Assembly: GCA_019637855.1 (NCBI GenBank)
Contig: JAHBUX010000022.1
Span: forward strand, 1 to 32,461
Direction of reading: 5' to 3'
DNA: 32,461 bases
From: Bdellovibrionales bacterium
GTDB taxonomy: Bacteria; Bdellovibrionota; Bdellovibrionia; Bdellovibrionales; UBA1609
Below the pieces are notes generated by a model. It searched no databases and was not told where the DNA came from. It saw only the letters and a list, made by a program, of their open reading frames with translations. A program made the position numbers and the translations under genes. This document shows positions 1 through 31,059 of the stretch, piece after piece (position 1 is the first letter of the stretch; every line of letters begins with the position of its first letter).

Positions 1-3000
1 TCGGCTTTACGGTTCAGAATATTGATCGTTCTCATACCGCTGTTGCCCAAGTTGTCTGAGACGTTGAGATCCATTTGGATATAGCTCGCGTTTCTTACAT
101 TCATTGCTTTGACATAGAAAAGCTTGGCACGATCACCGCTACTCCACGGCATCATTCCGCCGAGCGAGCTAAAGCACTGAGCGTCCGAGTAGAACTGAAT
201 GTTGGCACCCATAAGTGCGCCAGAAGGACTGAAATTGATCGTGGTAGCCGTAGACGGCGTGCTGCGGCCGGCGGGATCTACTGCTGAGACCGCGAAAGCC
301 TGACACTGATCTTCGATCATATCAGATAAACCGAGAACCTCATAAGTGGTGTGCGCGCCTGCGGAAACGGCGACTTTGGTGAAGTTGAAATCCAACGGAT
401 CAGCGCCGTAGCTACCGCCAGCGCTGAGTGTGATCGACTCACTTCCTGTCGATCCAGTCGACTTCACATAAAGCAGGCGAGCGGATTGATTCATTTCCAC
501 CAAATTGCCGCTGGTGATGGGGCCGCCTGTCGAGCAATCCCCGGTGGCGTAGAATGCCACCTCGGTGGCGCCAGTGATACTGACCAAGTTGGGCAGAGCA
601 TTGCCGCCTGATTCCGCCAGGAAGGACGGCTTATAGATGGTGCTAGTCTCCGAGATATAGGGAGTTATACCGTAGGTCATGATCATATGCGGCTGACAGT
701 TGTTGGTCGAAGCTTCGCTATTGGTACCAGCGACCGTGGTCAGGTTAGTCGCTTTCAAAGGAGCCTGATAGACGTTCACGTAGGGCATATAGATTTGCGA
801 AAGACCCCAGGATTGCATCAAGTACATCGGATACAGCTGAAAGCTGGTGGTCGCCCACATCGGAGTGATAGGCACACTGATCGATCCTGCATCGCTCAAC
901 AAGAAAGACGCGGTTCCATAAGTTGAAAACGGAGCCGAGCCGGAGAACGCCAGGCCAACGCCGGGAGGCGATGTGTAGCTAGTGGCTCTTTGGTAACTAT
1001 ATTGGGTCATCGCAATCACCGGAACTGTATAGGTCTCACCTACGAACATCGGAATCGATGCTCCACCTTGTGAAGTGCTGCCTGGCATAAATGTACGACC
1101 GGGGAAAAGCATGGAAACGGCGGCGACCGGCTCCGGACCCACCGTCACATCTTGACTGAGTGAAAGGGTCGGCGCCGACGAGCTGATATTGATTGTCGTC
1201 GGTCCTGAAGAGTTGGTCTTGAGATAAATCGTTTTCTGCGTGGTTTCGTCATCCAGCGGCCACGTCACTCCGGGAGATGAGCAGCCCGAATAGTCGTAGA
1301 ATTGCAGACGTGAGTTCGTGTCTGTGGTCGTGATACCCATGCTGCCGCCGCCGGTGAGCGGTACCAGTTTGCCTGCGACATCCGTCGACTCTAAGACAAA
1401 CGGTTGGCAAGTGCCGTAGCCTAAGTTCGAACCCAGACCGCGCAAACGCCATTTGATCGGGGCTCCGGGAATATTGATTGAGCCCGAACCATAGACGATG
1501 TTTTGCGAAGTGACTGATCCCCAGTTGCCGGAAGCCGAGATCGTGGTGTTGAACGCGGACGAGCTGTTGTACTTAAAGTATTTGAACACCGTTGAGATTT
1601 GGTAGGGCGGTGTGCCCGACATGTTGAAACCGGGCGAGGTTCCGTAGCTATCGCACATCGCCGAGTCATAGAACTTCAGAGCTGGGTTGCTGCTATTGAT
1701 GGTCGACGTCGAGGGTCCGCCGTAGTTAGGATTTGCGGCTTGCGTGCTGGTGCTGCCATAGACCGCTTGCAGAGTGAGGGGATAGCACTCATAGGCATTG
1801 ATGGTCGGAGGCGCACCGATCATGCGGATGTAGTTGGCTGCGCTGCCTTGATCCGTCAGAGTGACCGCCGCCGAGCCATAGCTGGGCATTCCGCCTGAGT
1901 AAGCGGTGATGTAGCGGGTGCTCGGACCTGAATCAGCCGAACGATACCAAAGGCGCATCGTGGGCATCATGGTCCCGGGAATGTAGCCGGCGTTGATCGG
2001 GTATTGGCAAGTGCTGTCGGAAGCGAAAATCTGCGAGCCTGTACCGATATCGGATGTCAATGTGATGCCAGACATGGCACCTGCACCCAGCGTTTGTGCC
2101 GCCGCACCGGTGTTGTCCACGGCTTGAATCGTGAGCGGAACACAAACGCCATTGTGCACGTTGTTGCCCGGGCTTGCTTCCAAAGTGACTTTCCAGGCCG
2201 TACCCATGACGTTGTTGCTGGGCGGGTAGTATTGGAAGGCGTAAGAGCCGATGTAGATACCTATGTCGTACATGCTACCATCGGTGCGCACAGCGCAGAG
2301 AATGGCCGCAGTGTTGTTGGCTGCGTCGTTGTCATTGATCGTGCTGTTGATCGTGAACGTGTTGGTGGAGTTATTGATCGTGCCTTGACCTGCGAACACA
2401 TAGCCTGTGGGTAAGGCGTTGCAAGACGGATCGTTGAGCCACGAGTTAGGATCTACACCTTGTTTTTTATAGACTTTCAATGACGAGATGATCGAGCCCA
2501 TGCCGGGCAGAACCGATCCGGTCAACACGCGGTTGGCGGATTGGTTGACACTGACCACTTGATTGCTGCCGTTGCCTGTGTCCATCAAACGGAAAGGACC
2601 GCGATAACCGGAAGCGCTGTCTTTACCATTGCCATCCACGAGATTTTTAACGATCGGGATGTACTTGATAAACTCATCAGCTGCCGTGTTGGGCGAATTC
2701 GGGCAGCCCGAGTTGTCGCCTCCCAGGAAAGTCACGTAAGAGTAAGGCGAAACCTGATCGATCAACTGACTTTCGCTTGGCAAAGTCAGACCAACATTGA
2801 TCAAGTTGCTCACACTCAAAGGTTCAGTCGTGCCCCATTCAGCGGGTGTTTGGCTGTACTCATCCATGCGCGACAAGGTGCCGCTCAAGCCACTCTTACA
2901 AATCGAGCGTGTGGACCATGGTGCCGCGGCTTTGGCGGCCGCATTTCCCCAATATCCCCATATATAGTACTGCGCCTCTTCGGGGCGATAGCCACTGCTG

Positions 3001-3749
3001 CCACCGTCCGCTCGAATTGCTACGGGTAAGGCGGCCTTAACACGACGGTTCCATTCGGCACCGCTATTGGCGTTGGGGTCAAACACGGCGCTGTTCAAGG
3101 ACACGGGCTCACCCCAAAGAGTTTCGCCGTTCACTTCATAACGGAAAGCCACGTTAGACAAACCGAAAGCCGAAAACCAGCCGTTGAGCATCAATGTGCT
3201 TTCGATCAACATTTCAGGTTTGGTAGAGCTGGGTAAAAACTTGATGTTCAAAACCCCGGTCGGTCCTGAGTCTGCGGCTGTTAGATAGCGGCCCATAATT
3301 TGACCGCCAATGGAGGTCGCGCCGTTGCTCAAGGGCGACACCACGACGGTGGCCGATTGCGGGCCTGGATTCAGAGATTGGGTCACATCGCCGTAGTAAA
3401 AATTCATGCTGCCCGAAGCGTCGTCTTCATACACAGCCAACACTTGGATCAAACGGTTGTTACCGCTCGGCACTTCGATATCGAATTCGGTGGGCAAGGT
3501 GTGGCCGTCGTTAGCATCCCAAACCTTCAGGCGTTGGCCGGAAATGCCCGAGCCGGAAACGTTCACGATCACATGAGTTAAAGAGGCCGTGCTAAATGCG
3601 GTGATGCCTTTGCTCTGCGCTTTGTTGTGTTGCGAAGGAACAGAAGTAGGTGGAAGTCCGATCGATAGGCGCGAGGTATCGCCTTTGCCGCGGGCACAAC
3701 CCATCGAACACAAGAGTACTGCTGCGCTGAATAGCACCACGTTCCGCAT
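1..3749 (-). CDS. Giant repeat-containing lipoprotein, C-terminus beyond the window
   Basis: The reverse strand is open from an ATG at 3749 to the left edge: at least 1249 codons with no stop, and the gene is unfinished. A GGGGG ribosome site lies about 5 nt before the ATG. The first 18 residues form a lipoprotein signal (short positive start, hydrophobic stretch, LLCSMGC with Cys18 as lipidation site), so the product is probably exported and membrane-anchored. After an N-terminal part of about 430 residues there are at least five loosely similar Ser/Thr/Gly-rich modules. Each has a Cys-x-Pro-(Leu/Phe) opening, and most have a later FY-x4-C motif (FYDSAMC, FYDYSGC, FYATGDC, FYSDAQC), suggesting paired cysteines in beta-sandwich modules. 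I do not recognise a named family. A surface, adhesion or prey-contact role is inference from architecture only. It is divergent from pckG. Confidence 0.85.
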   Translation of the reverse strand, partial: MRNVVLFSAAVLLCSMGCARGKGDTSRLSIGLPPTSVPSQHNKAQSKGITAFSTASLTHVIVNVSGSGISGQRLKVWDANDGHTLPTEFDIEVPSGNNRLIQVLAVYEDDASGSMNFYYGDVTQSLNPGPQSATVVVSPLSNGATSIGGQIMGRYLTAADSGPTGVLNIKFLPSSTKPEMLIESTLMLNGWFSAFGLSNVAFRYEVNGETLWGEPVSLNSAVFDPNANSGAEWNRRVKAALPVAIRADGGSSGYRPEEAQYYIWGYWGNAAAKAAAPWSTRSICKSGLSGTLSRMDEYSQTPAEWGTTEPLSVSNLINVGLTLPSESQLIDQVSPYSYVTFLGGDNSGCPNSPNTAADEFIKYIPIVKNLVDGNGKDSASGYRGPFRLMDTGNGSNQVVSVNQSANRVLTGSVLPGMGSIISSLKVYKKQGVDPNSWLNDPSCNALPTGYVFAGQGTINNSTNTFTINSTINDNDAANNTAAILCAVRTDGSMYDIGIYIGSYAFQYYPPSNNVMGTAWKVTLEASPGNNVHNGVCVPLTIQAVDNTGAAAQTLGAGAMSGITLTSDIGTGSQIFASDSTCQYPINAGYIPGTMMPTMRLWYRSADSGPSTRYITAYSGGMPSYGSAAVTLTDQGSAANYIRMIGAPPTINAYECYPLTLQAVYGSTSTQAANPNYGGPSTSTINSSNPALKFYDSAMCDSYGTSPGFNMSGTPPYQISTVFKYFKYNSSSAFNTTISASGNWGSVTSQNIVYGSGSINIPGAPIKWRLRGLGSNLGYGTCQPFVLESTDVAGKLVPLTGGGSMGITTTDTNSRLQFYDYSGCSSPGVTWPLDDETTQKTIYLKTNSSGPTTINISSSAPTLSLSQDVTVGPEPVAAVSMLFPGRTFMPGSTSQGGASIPMFVGETYTVPVIAMTQYSYQRATSYTSPPGVGLAFSGSAPFSTYGTASFLLSDAGSISVPITPMWATTSFQLYPMYLMQSWGLSQIYMPYVNVYQAPLKATNLTTVAGTNSEASTNNCQPHMIMTYGITPYISETSTIYKPSFLAESGGNALPNLVSITGATEVAFYATGDCSTGGPITSGNLVEMNQSARLLYVKSTGSTGSESITLSAGGSYGADPLDFNFTKVAVSAGAHTTYEVLGLSDMIEDQCQAFAVSAVDPAGRSTPSTATTINFSPSGALMGANIQFYSDAQCFSSLGGMMPWSSGDRAKLFYVKAMNVRNASYIQMDLNVSDNLGNSGMRTINILNRKA

Positions 3750-3998
3750 ACGTCCCCCATAGAGATTTGAATGTACGCACTGTACTTTTCGGCGCGATAA
3801 CGCTGGGGATTTAATATTCTCACTGCGAGTCAGGTTGTGTGTGATTTCAGCACATGTCGCGCATTGAGACGCTAGCGATACATGTGCACAGAAGACCGGC
3901 AGCGTGGCTTTGCACTTTTTTACGCGACGCATTTTCTGGCGCTATTCCCTGCCTCGACCATTATATACTGCTGCATCTCACTTTAGAGGGGGGCTTCC
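3750..3998. promoter_or_regulatory. Divergent intergenic region between giant lipoprotein and pckG
   Basis: This 249-bp gap must hold promoters for both flanking genes. Toward pckG, a TATACT hexamer at 3964-3969 is a good -10 match. The hexamer 17 bp upstream (GCTATT, 3941-3946) is a poor -35, so the promoter may be activator-dependent or use another sigma factor. The expected transcript would start near 3976 and include the GGGGGG ribosome site before the ATG at 3999. No clear promoter was recognised for the lipoprotein. Confidence 0.35.
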
Positions 3999-27326: not shown

Positions 27327-28022
27327 TTAATAACGGATGAGCAGAGTGACCATCGGACTTAACGTGGCGTCCTGCGCCTTTGAAAACAGCGAGGCATCGG
27401 AATAGTTTTCCGAGGCATTCAAGTTGTTGGTCTTTGATTGCTTCTTATAGCTCACAGTTCGGTAGACGAGCGAGGGGCCTACTTCCACATTCGAGAACAT
27501 TCCGAATGTGTAGCCTGCGGTGATTTGAAAGCCGCTCATTTCTTTGGTTTTGATCGAAATGTCTCCGGTGATGCCCGTATTGTCGGCGTTCTTAGTGGCC
27601 ACCGTTTGGCTGCCGCTCAAGAACAGCGTCGCCAAAAAGCGAAAGCCACCGTGCAAGTATCCGATGGTGGGGCCGTACTCGCTGCGTGAGGTGGTCTCAT
27701 CCAACCCAGAATCACCGCCGCTCACATAGGCGCGTTTGGTGTTGAGTGCATAGAGGTTGTATGTGAAGCCGAGTAGAGCTTGCCCAAAGAAAGTGTAACC
27801 GATCGTTGTGCGGAAGTCGTAACCTAAGCCGGATTCCGTAGCCACGCCCGGGGACGTGGTCACGCTGCGCGTGTCATTCTTATTTACGTAGACGGGAAAA
27901 AAAGTCTCTTCGAGGTAAAATCCTTTGTCGCCTCCGGAGCCAGCGCTGCTGCGGGTTTGCGCGAATGTGTGTCCCGAGATGAGAAGGAGAAATCCTAAAG
28001 CGAATTTGGTGAATGTATACAT
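27327..28022 (-). CDS. Outer-membrane beta-barrel protein
   Basis: This 231-residue protein has an N-terminal signal peptide (about 1-21, ending HTFAQ). The mature part is rich in alternating polar/aromatic strands (YDFRTTIGYTFFGQALLGFTY, GFRFLATLFLSG, GFQITAGYTFG), with Ser/Thr/Asn-rich loops. It ends LLIRY, a typical aromatic beta-signal for barrel assembly. I count roughly eight to ten likely strands. No specific family was recognised. The start shares a 166-bp divergent region with the Ig-like lipoprotein gene, suggesting co-regulation. A second small barrel gene lies on the far side of that gene. Confidence 0.82.
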   Translation of the reverse strand: MYTFTKFALGFLLLISGHTFAQTRSSAGSGGDKGFYLEETFFPVYVNKNDTRSVTTSPGVATESGLGYDFRTTIGYTFFGQALLGFTYNLYALNTKRAYVSGGDSGLDETTSRSEYGPTIGYLHGGFRFLATLFLSGSQTVATKNADNTGITGDISIKTKEMSGFQITAGYTFGMFSNVEVGPSLVYRTVSYKKQSKTNNLNASENYSDASLFSKAQDATLSPMVTLLIRY

Positions 28023-28188
28023 GGCGCCTCACTGTGCGACTAAGTCTCATAATAATTCTGCGACCAATGTTCATGATTTTGTAGACGTTTGCGGCTTTCC
28101 CAATTTGAGGCGCATTCCTGTCGAAGTTCTGTACTTCGGTCGTGTTAGAATTAAAGGACTTAGGGCCGATCTAAGGTCGGAGGGTCTT
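28023..28188. promoter_or_regulatory. Divergent leader region with hairpins
   Basis: This 166-bp gap separates the barrel gene and the Ig-like lipoprotein. It contains a perfect inverted repeat CGAAGT-TCTGT-ACTTCG (28122-28138) and a short CCGA/TCGG hairpin ending at the GGAGGG ribosome site of the lipoprotein. These could be an operator and a translation-control element. No clear -35/-10 pair was found. Confidence 0.35.
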
Positions 28189-31059
28189 ATGGGACGTAAG
28201 TTCATATCTCCGCCAAGATTCCCTGCTGTTTCCGTTGTCTTGGCGGCATTCATGTTAACCCTAACTTCCTGCTGGCATGGTGGGAATGGGGATGATTGCG
28301 AAAAGCCTTTTGATAAACTCGTCGAGCCCGACGAGATCAAAAACTCTTCTCAAATTTATATTGGCATCAACAAGCTCGATTTCCTCGATGGCGGCAACTT
28401 CGTTATCGACGATGTGACTTTGGAGTCAGGCTTGAACGGCGCTCACACGCAGAACGAGGACATCACACTCGATATGAACGGGATAAAACTGTCCCGTCGT
28501 GACGGCGCTCCTTATTGCGACCGCATGGATCGTGATGGTGCCCATAGCCGCAGCTACCACAAGCTGCATAAGATGTATCTGAACGGCGGTATGAGCTTTG
28601 AGCTGTTCTTGCTCAAGCTCAAATTGCAGCGTGGAACTTTGCGTCTGTCGGTGAACGGCAAGAAGATCGTGCTGCGCGATGCTCTGGTGCGCTTTAAAGG
28701 CCGCCATTGGGGCAAATGCCCCAATCCCGACCCGGGCAACCCGGCGCCCAAGCCGGCACCGGTGAGCGAGATCACGGCGGTGTCTCCAAATGAGACATTG
28801 ACCGCTTCGTCTAATATATCCTTCACCTTTAGCGCCAATCAGACGGGTGTGACTTTCTGGTGTGCGTTGGATAGTGCAACTCCTGCGATGTGTACGTCGC
28901 CGAAGGCATATACGGGCGTGGCCAATGGCACACACACGTTTAAGGTCTACGCGGTGAACTCTTCGAATAAACAGGAAGACCCGCCGAAGTCTTACACGTG
29001 GACGGTGGATTCTGTAGCACCGACGGTGACGATCACTAACGCGGCTCAGCTGCCGACGCTGACCAAGCAGACGGCGATGAGCTTTCAGTTCGCGGCCAAT
29101 GAAGCTTCGAGCTTCCAGTGCAGCGTAGACGGTTCAGCTTTTGCGCCTTGTACTTCGCCGCAAAGCTACTCGGCTTTGCAAGAGGGTGCTCATAGCTTCG
29201 CGGTTCGCGCTGTCGACAGCGTGGGCAATGTGAGCGGCACGCCGGCGATGTTCAATTGGAATATCGATTTGACCAACCCGGTGACCACCATCTTGGCGGT
29301 CGAACCGGCTGCTGCGATCAGCAACTCGCGCACCCGCAGCTTTGAGTTTGCCGCATCCGAAACTTCGACTTTCGAATGCTCGATTGACAACGGTCCTTTT
29401 GCCGCTTGCCAATCGCCTCTCGCCTTGGCGGATTTAGTGGAAGGTGCACATTATTTTGAAGTGCGTGCGACCGATTTGGCCGGCAATTTAGGCGTGTCGG
29501 TGGGTGTGGCTTGGAAGAACGACTACACCGCGCCGGTATTGAGTTTCGGCACAGTCACGCCTCCAGTCGGTTTGACCAATGCTAAAAATCTTTCGGCCGA
29601 ATTCGTCAGCGATGAACCTGCGAGTCTGTATTGCTCGGTCGATGGTGCAGTCGCTGCGGAGTGTGCTTCGCCCTTCGTAATGAGTGACATGGCCGATGGC
29701 AACCACCAACTCACGGTGTACGCCGTGGATGTGGCGGGAAATCAGAGCGCCACCGGTTCGTTAAACTGGACTGTGGACTCGATGGCTCCGACTTTGAGCT
29801 TCGCAGCGATCATGCCCTCGGCTTCGACCTACCTGGGTTCGGGCTCGATCGGCTTTGAGTTGGCTGTTAGCGAAAACGCCGATTTGACCATGAGCTTAAA
29901 CGGTGCGCCGGTTGTCACCAGCAATCCGATTCAATTCGATGGTTTGAGCGATGGGGCTTACATCTTTGAAGTGAGTGCCAAAGACAGCGCCGGTAACGTG
30001 TCGGCCACCATTCGTCATGAGTGGGTGTTCGATCGCTCGGCCCCGAGTCTGACGGTGACTTCGGATGACACTGCGGAGATCACGCGTTCCGATATGCGTA
30101 CATTTGAGTTCGCTTCGGATGAAGCTGTAACTTATGAGTGCAATGCGGACAGCGCAGGCTTTGCGGCTTGCCAAACTCCGTTGGCACTCTCTGGTTTGGC
30201 CGATGGCGTTCATACGTTGGAAGTGAAGGCGATCGATCTGGCTGGTAACTACACTCTGGCGAGCAAGACGTGGAGTGTGGATACGCGTGCGCCTGTGACT
30301 ACTGTGGTCGCATCGCAGACGGGTAGCAGCATCCTGTTCTCATTCACCGCCGATGAAGAAGCGACATTTGAGTGTAGCTTGGATTTCGTGACACCGGTTA
30401 GCTGTACGGACCCTGTGACCTACGCCAACTTGGCGAGCGGTCATCACAATTTCACTGTGTGGGCCACCGACGTTGCGGGTAACAAAGATCCGGCTGGTGC
30501 GAGCTATGCCTTTGACGTGCTCAATCCGATTGTGACTACGATCACTGGTCGTATTCCGTCGTCCGACGTCTCGAACCAATCGAGCGCGACGTTTGAGTTC
30601 AGTGCGAACCAAGCCACGTCGTTGTTCCTGTGTTCGTTGGATGGCGCACCGGCGACGGTGTGTAACTCGCCGGTTTCCTATTCGGGATTGAGTGATGGTC
30701 CTCACACCTTCAACGTGAAGGGTGTGGATGTGGCGGGCAATATGGATGCAGTGGGTGCTTCGTCGAGCTGGTCCGTGGACACCACGGCTCCGGTTCCGAA
30801 CAACATTTCGCCGACGGCGACGACCAACTCGATCACTGTGAACTGGACGACGTCTGAGCCAGCCACTGAACAGTTGCGCTATGGCGTAGGTGTGGCAGTG
30901 ACCAGCCAAACGCCTGAGACGGCAACGTACACGACGTCACATTCGATCCGCATCACCGGTCTATCGCCCAACACCATGTACACGATCCAGGTGTTTGGCC
31001 GTGACCAAGCTGGCAACACGTACTTGAGCGCGACGCGCACGGTTCGTACCAGCCGCTAG
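28189..31059 (+). CDS. Surface lipoprotein with eight Ig-like repeats and an FN3 domain
   Basis: This 956-residue exported lipoprotein has a basic N-terminus, a hydrophobic stretch and LTSC with lipid-bearing Cys28. Residues 30-190 are a unique N-terminal domain. From about 195 there are eight tandem repeats of about 85 residues, each built as F-x-F-x-A, Cys-(S/A)-x-D, a second Cys 9-10 residues later followed by a Pro, then dG-H-F-V-A-D-aGN and W-x-D at the end. These are bacterial Ig-like sandwich domains of the kind found in adhesins. A final fibronectin-III-like domain (NSITVNWTTSEPATEQLRYG) closes the protein. The start at 28189 is chosen for GGAGGG upstream and the signal; the frame is open 88 codons further up without support. 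Prey or surface adhesion is inference. Confidence 0.9.
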   Translation: MGRKFISPPRFPAVSVVLAAFMLTLTSCWHGGNGDDCEKPFDKLVEPDEIKNSSQIYIGINKLDFLDGGNFVIDDVTLESGLNGAHTQNEDITLDMNGIKLSRRDGAPYCDRMDRDGAHSRSYHKLHKMYLNGGMSFELFLLKLKLQRGTLRLSVNGKKIVLRDALVRFKGRHWGKCPNPDPGNPAPKPAPVSEITAVSPNETLTASSNISFTFSANQTGVTFWCALDSATPAMCTSPKAYTGVANGTHTFKVYAVNSSNKQEDPPKSYTWTVDSVAPTVTITNAAQLPTLTKQTAMSFQFAANEASSFQCSVDGSAFAPCTSPQSYSALQEGAHSFAVRAVDSVGNVSGTPAMFNWNIDLTNPVTTILAVEPAAAISNSRTRSFEFAASETSTFECSIDNGPFAACQSPLALADLVEGAHYFEVRATDLAGNLGVSVGVAWKNDYTAPVLSFGTVTPPVGLTNAKNLSAEFVSDEPASLYCSVDGAVAAECASPFVMSDMADGNHQLTVYAVDVAGNQSATGSLNWTVDSMAPTLSFAAIMPSASTYLGSGSIGFELAVSENADLTMSLNGAPVVTSNPIQFDGLSDGAYIFEVSAKDSAGNVSATIRHEWVFDRSAPSLTVTSDDTAEITRSDMRTFEFASDEAVTYECNADSAGFAACQTPLALSGLADGVHTLEVKAIDLAGNYTLASKTWSVDTRAPVTTVVASQTGSSILFSFTADEEATFECSLDFVTPVSCTDPVTYANLASGHHNFTVWATDVAGNKDPAGASYAFDVLNPIVTTITGRIPSSDVSNQSSATFEFSANQATSLFLCSLDGAPATVCNSPVSYSGLSDGPHTFNVKGVDVAGNMDAVGASSSWSVDTTAPVPNNISPTATTNSITVNWTTSEPATEQLRYGVGVAVTSQTPETATYTTSHSIRITGLSPNTMYTIQVFGRDQAGNTYLSATRTVRTSR

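Follow-up and report, generated by a model that had tools for sequence, protein, structure and literature searches.

What is encoded by the long open frame that fills the left end of contig JAHBUX010000022.1 of a Bdellovibrionales bacterium, and with which partners does its product work? The window analyzed here is this entire contig, 32,461 nucleotides long (contig C15 of genome G000, which consists of 26 contigs and 3.37 Mb). A first-pass annotation had described a giant lipoprotein with cysteine-patterned modules on the minus strand and proposed a long fibre. It overlooked a separate conserved head, which makes up about 40% of the protein, and the exchangeable parts that follow this head in relatives. 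We found a strong association of the head family with a cyclase system, although the mechanism behind it is unproven. Our tentative answer is that the lipoprotein family may well serve as an antenna, exposed and in contact with ligands, for a signaling system in the envelope that works through FecR, CHASE2 and cyclic AMP (cAMP).

A lipoprotein with a conserved head and paired cysteines

The minus-strand frame (3..3932) has no stop codon up to the contig edge. Translation likely starts at the Met codon at 3749; because the homology of the relatives also begins at this Met, the 61 residues upstream of it are probably untranslated. From this Met 1249 residues are visible (N-terminus MRNVVLFSAAVLLCSMGC), in agreement with the earlier claim of an open frame of at least 1249 residues over the first 3.7 kb. 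In all 78 heads having an N-terminus, the same position is taken by a Cys, preceded by a hydrophobic stretch; a loose lipobox pattern fits 64 of them, and the remaining 14 have the Cys as well. This supports the prediction that the protein is a bacterial lipoprotein, and it is the lipobox part of the earlier claim of an exported lipoprotein that these counts bear out. The window protein matched no Pfam or NCBIfam family, as had been supposed for its modules, and a PDB sequence search likewise gave nothing useful. Its best full-length match is L082 (L186 is the fuller locus of the same gene), with 32% identity over 915 residues.

The head comprises about 480 residues. In an alignment of 18 heads (the window and 17 from relatives), C18, C443 and C485 are invariant, and a search of these heads against Pfam at E ≤ 1 found no family matching more than one head. 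The head was modeled from 11 sequences over 503 residues (mean predicted local distance difference test score (pLDDT) 71.5, predicted template modeling score (pTM) 0.77), and the model is mostly beta. Its N-part, hereafter N1, resembles a DUF4876 protein (4q1z, Z 9.5) and a Bacteroides putative adhesin (3up6, Z 8.4), and further rows at Z 6.5–7.8 are mainly adhesins and the type V fimbrillins and anchors of Bacteroidota (FimA, Mfa2, Mfa3). The C-part gave FnIII rows near Z 6. Type V fimbrillins and their anchors are lipoproteins too. However, the rest of the head differs from them, their Pfam families had no match in the 18 heads at E ≤ 1, and Z values of such size may reflect a common arrangement. 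Because no Foldseek row of the head model reached E ≤ 0.001, the fimbrillin-like fold predicted for N1 is a lead rather than a family assignment. A profile search linked the middle of the head (window 2604–3218) to E. coli YegP (2k8e, E 6e-5), a match that is unexplained and possibly due to chance.

The window protein contains 16 cysteines: residues 14 and 18 belong to the signal region, and the others are arranged in seven pairs. Two pairs lie in the head, and the other five (Table 1) form strictly paired modules with the recurring C-x-P and FY-x4-C motifs that had been noticed before; in the last module the C-x-P half reads CQA. When relatives were searched for this repeat, as had been proposed, the module profile matched 144 times, in 45 frames that include the one of the window. 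Cys stood at both positions in 139 of the 139 matches with letters there, a count that is biased because the modules used to build the profile contained Cys. Within the window's genome the module is restricted to this gene. Over the phylum it occurs in 120 of 290 genomes, and elsewhere some of the frames that carry it are thousands of residues long.

Module 3 was modeled from 19 sequences over 122 residues (mean pLDDT 77.7, pTM 0.70); the model has seven strands and resembles immunoglobulin-like (Ig-like) domains of many kinds, with Z up to 7.6 and no Foldseek row at E ≤ 0.001. Its Foldseek/VIA rows include bacterial Ig-like domains (S-layer SbsC, InvE, the CLIPPER domain and intimin D00), from which the module differs in having no Pfam match and in its C-x-P ... 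FYxDxxC pair. The module is predicted to be an Ig-like beta-sandwich, and only a common fold can be claimed, because the best rows come from Ig-like domains of a wide range of unrelated proteins. The first-pass annotation had proposed disulfide-stapled surface modules and a repeated fold. The paired-Cys repeats stand, with strict pairing and an Ig-like model, and the repetition is clear in sequence, whereas the fold was modeled for one module only and the disulfides and surface location are putative.

The layout of head, three modules, Cys-less gap and two modules is common to the window protein and five relatives (L073, L076, L080, L082 and L101). These five are complete, with the C-terminus 19, 21, 13, 14 and 13 residues past the last module, respectively; in the window protein 20 residues are visible past it. 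The profile search found no further module anywhere in the window's genome, and the missing gene end was not recovered. Because relatives of the same layout end 13–21 residues after the last module and because no other module exists in this genome, the gene is probably almost complete, with a stop predicted a few codons beyond the contig edge. It is probably more complete than the earlier reading could tell.

Table 1. Features of the lipoprotein gene in the window (residues are counted from the Met codon at 3749)
Feature	Position	Strand	Basis
Lipoprotein gene, visible part, 1249 codons, stop outside contig	3..3749	-	Open frame; homology of relatives starts at Met
GGGGGA, ribosome-binding-site-like, ahead of Met codon	3753..3758	-	Read in sequence
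Lipoprotein signal peptide, residues 1-18, lipobox Cys18	3696..3749	-	C18 invariant in 18 aligned heads
Head, N1 beta-sandwich (predicted), residues 24-177, fimbrillin/DUF4876 N-domain-like	3219..3680	-	Model; best Z 9.5, 8.4
Head, middle part, residues 178-382, C284/C349	2604..3218	-	Alignment; model low-confidence in stretches
Head, FnIII-like end, residues 383-508, C443/C485	2226..2603	-	Invariant C443, C485; FnIII rows at Z about 6
Module 1, residues 516-634, C536/C581	1848..2204	-	Sequence and module profile
Module 2, residues 636-757, C655/C699	1479..1844	-	Sequence and module profile
Module 3, residues 762-874, C781/C823, the one modeled	1128..1466	-	Sequence, module profile and model
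Cys-less stretch between modules 3 and 4, residues 875-997, same place in five relatives	759..1127	-	Sequence and module profile
Module 4, residues 998-1128, C1018/C1072	366..758	-	Sequence and module profile
Module 5, residues 1131-1246, C1149/C1192, then contig edge	12..359	-	Sequence, module profile and tails of relatives

Exchangeable outer parts behind the head

Fifteen of the 20 relatives searched match the window protein, mostly inside its first ~490 residues, and the named relatives are mostly metagenome-assembled genomes (MAGs) of Bdellovibrionales. The head profile matched 77 of 140 genomes of this order, in 44 of 65 genera, and 61 of 290 genomes over the phylum, of which 58 are inside the order. 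Two of the three matches outside it are weak and one is strong (G312, E 1.7e-92). Thus, unlike the phylum-wide module, the head is nearly confined to Bdellovibrionales. The strong outside match (G312:C47:27220-28719) possibly reflects transfer or contamination, and a MAG labeled Streptomyces griseus (L032) has a head lipoprotein that groups with Bdellovibrionales, so that its label is probably wrong.

The part after the head is exchangeable and consists of modules, propellers or other folds, many of them often binding-related. Among the 83 head-matching frames, which include fragments and near-duplicates, 43 carry one to five modules. Pfam searches of 73 C-terminal regions found RCC1, FG-GAP, Calx-beta, SBBP, NHL, Kelch, DUF5122, FGE, Lcl_C, ASH/Cep192, Chlam_PMP and more, each family in one to five members. 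There are also members that consist of nothing but the head, such as the 520-residue frame of L024 and L029. N1, the first ~100–200 residues of the head, also occurs in lipoproteins that lack the remainder of the head; its profile matched 79 of the 140 genomes, one to five times each. L178, for example, has N1 and three modules, and the second N1 lipoprotein of the window's genome (L127:9950-12289, G000:C23) continues with about five repeats, which look ASH/choice-of-anchor-like.

Several further forms were observed. Behind the head, L019 (both copies), L020, L022, L023, L027 and L030 have in common a Gly-rich region that terminates with a pair of cysteines and for which there was no convincing Pfam match among those scanned. 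L031, L019 and L024 have tandem head lipoproteins with different outer parts, as if duplicated with swapped cargo. The relatives L025 and L037 are broken over several reading frames and represent damaged genes or assembly errors.

Association with a CHASE2 cyclase, TPR and FecR

We counted partner genes in the 140 genomes of the order, taking a head or N1 match as the lipoprotein; the E-value limits of these genome searches, 1e-8 and 1e-40, were chosen by us. The lipoprotein and a tetratricopeptide repeat (TPR) protein were both present in 80 genomes, only the first in 6, only the second in 5, and neither in 49. In the same order, the counts were 83/3/6/48 for the lipoprotein and the cyclase (E ≤ 1e-80) and 83/2/6/49 for the TPR protein and the cyclase. 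As a control, the lipoprotein and S74 genes, which stand for the mosaic adhesive trimer (MAT) proteins, gave 59/27/36/18 (p 0.85). The distribution of the lipoprotein follows those of the cyclase and the TPR protein and is independent of S74 genes. In 24 genomes of genus g37 (G023–G046) the counts were 9/1/0/14 for each partner; they are not independent of the gene neighborhood, because the genes are mostly adjacent there.

In three Bdellovibrio loci (L180, L181 and L182), a gene for an 881-residue protein lies 14–22 bp downstream of the head lipoprotein gene, and in L180 this protein consists of CHASE2 and a cyclase domain (Pfam). The cyclase gene is followed by convergent TPR and FecR genes and then by a second N1 lipoprotein gene, whose product in L180 bears an RCC1 propeller. 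In L186, 9.3 kb suffice for the genes of FecR, the TPR protein, the lipoprotein and the cyclase. We compared ten TPR loci, L180–L182 and seven more (L184 of the window's genome, L186, L187–L189, L190 and L191). L187–L189 were picked because a lipoprotein was known nearby, and L190 and L191 were not so picked. The FecR gene is next to the TPR gene in each of the ten loci. Six of them (L180, L181, L182, L186, L188 and L189) combine all four genes, a fraction from loci partly chosen for it. The TPR protein is single-copy per genome. PEPCK, ZapA, RNase Y and TyrS, encoded beside the gene in the window, had no matches beside it in relatives.

If L180 is taken as strain HD100, the counterpart of the lipoprotein gene there is probably bd2639 or bd2638, a tag that we infer. 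The L180 locus spans from a polyhydroxybutyrate (PHB)-depolymerase-like gene (Pfam) to the CHASE2 cyclase gene. In the available text of PMC4834554, bd2637 is the PHB-depolymerase-like gene, and in that of PMC6717892, bd2640 appears with the annotation adenylate cyclase. In the open-licence PMC literature on Bdellovibrio lipoproteins, fibres and adhesins, on Bd2635–Bd2646 and on CHASE2/FecR, we found no description of the lipoprotein family.

The window's genome has all the parts: CHASE2 (1e-42) and Guanylate_cyc, FecR and TPR. In this genome the LptD gene overlaps the end of the CHASE2 cyclase gene by four bases (L185:4336-9401, G000:C3), hinting at a link between the cyclase and lipopolysaccharide transport.

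A putative relay to cAMP and its rivals

The antenna model starts from what was observed: the frame, the lipobox, the head family, the module repeats, the neighborhood in relatives and the shared distribution. The lipid-anchored protein would have its head next to the membrane, with a chain of Cys-paired Ig-like modules pointing outward, and an outer-membrane-type TPR protein would hold or export it. A periplasmic FecR protein would sit between and relay. At the inner membrane, an adenylate cyclase would read the state through its CHASE2 domain and produce cAMP. The disulfides, orientation, export, direction of signaling and ligand are postulates of the model. Whether swappable lipoprotein antennae, displayed by the TPR protein and read via FecR by the CHASE2 cyclase, make up an undescribed relay from the outer membrane to cAMP is doubtful at present.

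Related systems offer partial precedents. According to the available text of PMC5192318, CHASE2 and FecR of the Burkholderia BiofilmReg system are in one operon, with a histidine kinase instead of the cyclase. A CHASE2 cyclase (CyaD1), FecR and TPR proteins act in one cAMP pathway of S. meliloti, as described in the available text of PMC5498481. No large modular lipoprotein is mentioned in those texts. The lipoprotein gene is adjacent to the FecR/CHASE2 genes in L180–L182, L186, L188 and L189 and not in the window's genome.

Several points weigh against an antenna. The genes are scattered in the window's genome, with the head gene on C15, FecR and TPR on C22 and the cyclase on C3, and the TPR and N1/head lipoprotein genes are ≤5 kb apart in at least 15 of the 80 genomes having both. 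A weak Omp85 match occurs in one of seven TPR proteins, whose barrel is otherwise presumed. Asp is found at +2 in 8 of the 64 pattern-fitting lipoboxes, and in E. coli Asp at this position acts as a signal for the inner membrane. Inheritance accounts for part of the association: its Fisher values (4e-25 and 5e-27) are not to be taken literally, because the genomes are related by descent, small genomes are frequent among those without any of the parts, and the cut-off of 1e-80, which selects the long cyclase, was fixed after the match list had been seen.

The lipoprotein might instead be a display adhesin that works like MAT fibres, with a constant head, a variable part binding prey or surfaces and no signaling, so that the cyclase link is co-regulation only. 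We regard this as possible, although rather unlikely. MAT proteins of B. bacteriovorus have a constant N-domain and diverse outer domains (available text of PMC10769870). They are the nearest functional analogue in Bdellovibrio, being likewise exported, from the same order and built of a constant, beta-rich N-domain with diverse outer domains, and the similarity of N1 to fimbrial anchor and adhesin domains fits a display role as well. However, the lipobox sets the window protein apart, it has no S74 match in Pfam, and the family tracks the cyclase and the TPR protein independently of S74 MAT genes. When the head profile was compared with 13 S74-MAT N-termini, the best E was 0.16 and the profile-profile probability 0.1, and homology of the head with MAT proteins was rejected for these.

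The lipoprotein could also be a passenger of a Slam-like TPR exporter, with the cyclase system monitoring export and not an outside ligand. Slam proteins are exporters of surface lipoproteins and have a TPR part and a C-terminal region. The TPR protein here has the same two parts beside a lipoprotein gene, and its single copy tracks the lipoproteins and adjoins them in at least 15 genomes. Nevertheless, seven of its members had no SLAM/DUF560 Pfam match at E ≤ 1, the C-terminal region as a barrel is presumptive, and five genomes have the TPR protein without the lipoprotein; we consider this explanation unlikely. The long disulfide-stapled surface fibre, to which tandem modules with paired cysteines and the very long frames elsewhere in the phylum had pointed, is highly improbable, as the protein has only five such modules and one Cys-less stretch and probably ends at the contig edge, relatives swap modules for propellers and other folds, and nothing found points to polymerization.

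We know of no account of how Bdellovibrio registers contact with prey. If true, such a relay would enable predatory bacteria and their relatives to convert the touch of prey or a surface into cAMP, and CHASE2 domains, whose recognized signal is stated to be unknown in the available text of PMC5192318, would gain a defined input. The new point is the partnership of the lipoprotein family, defined by an undescribed head without Pfam match, with the CHASE2 cyclase, TPR and FecR proteins. Since the lipoprotein gene is directly upstream of the CHASE2 cyclase gene in Bdellovibrio, a tractable strain offers one gene to delete, with cAMP as the read-out. Furthermore, many "hypothetical" proteins could be named, because Pfam has no match for the head family or the FYxDxxC module, both of which are common in this group.

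The window also encodes a second Cys-patterned protein with a lipoprotein-like start (27925–31059 on the plus strand, 1044 codons). Its repeats are of the kind FECSLDG...C.SP and have an Ig-like look, and they differ from the repeat of the lipoprotein at 3..3749.

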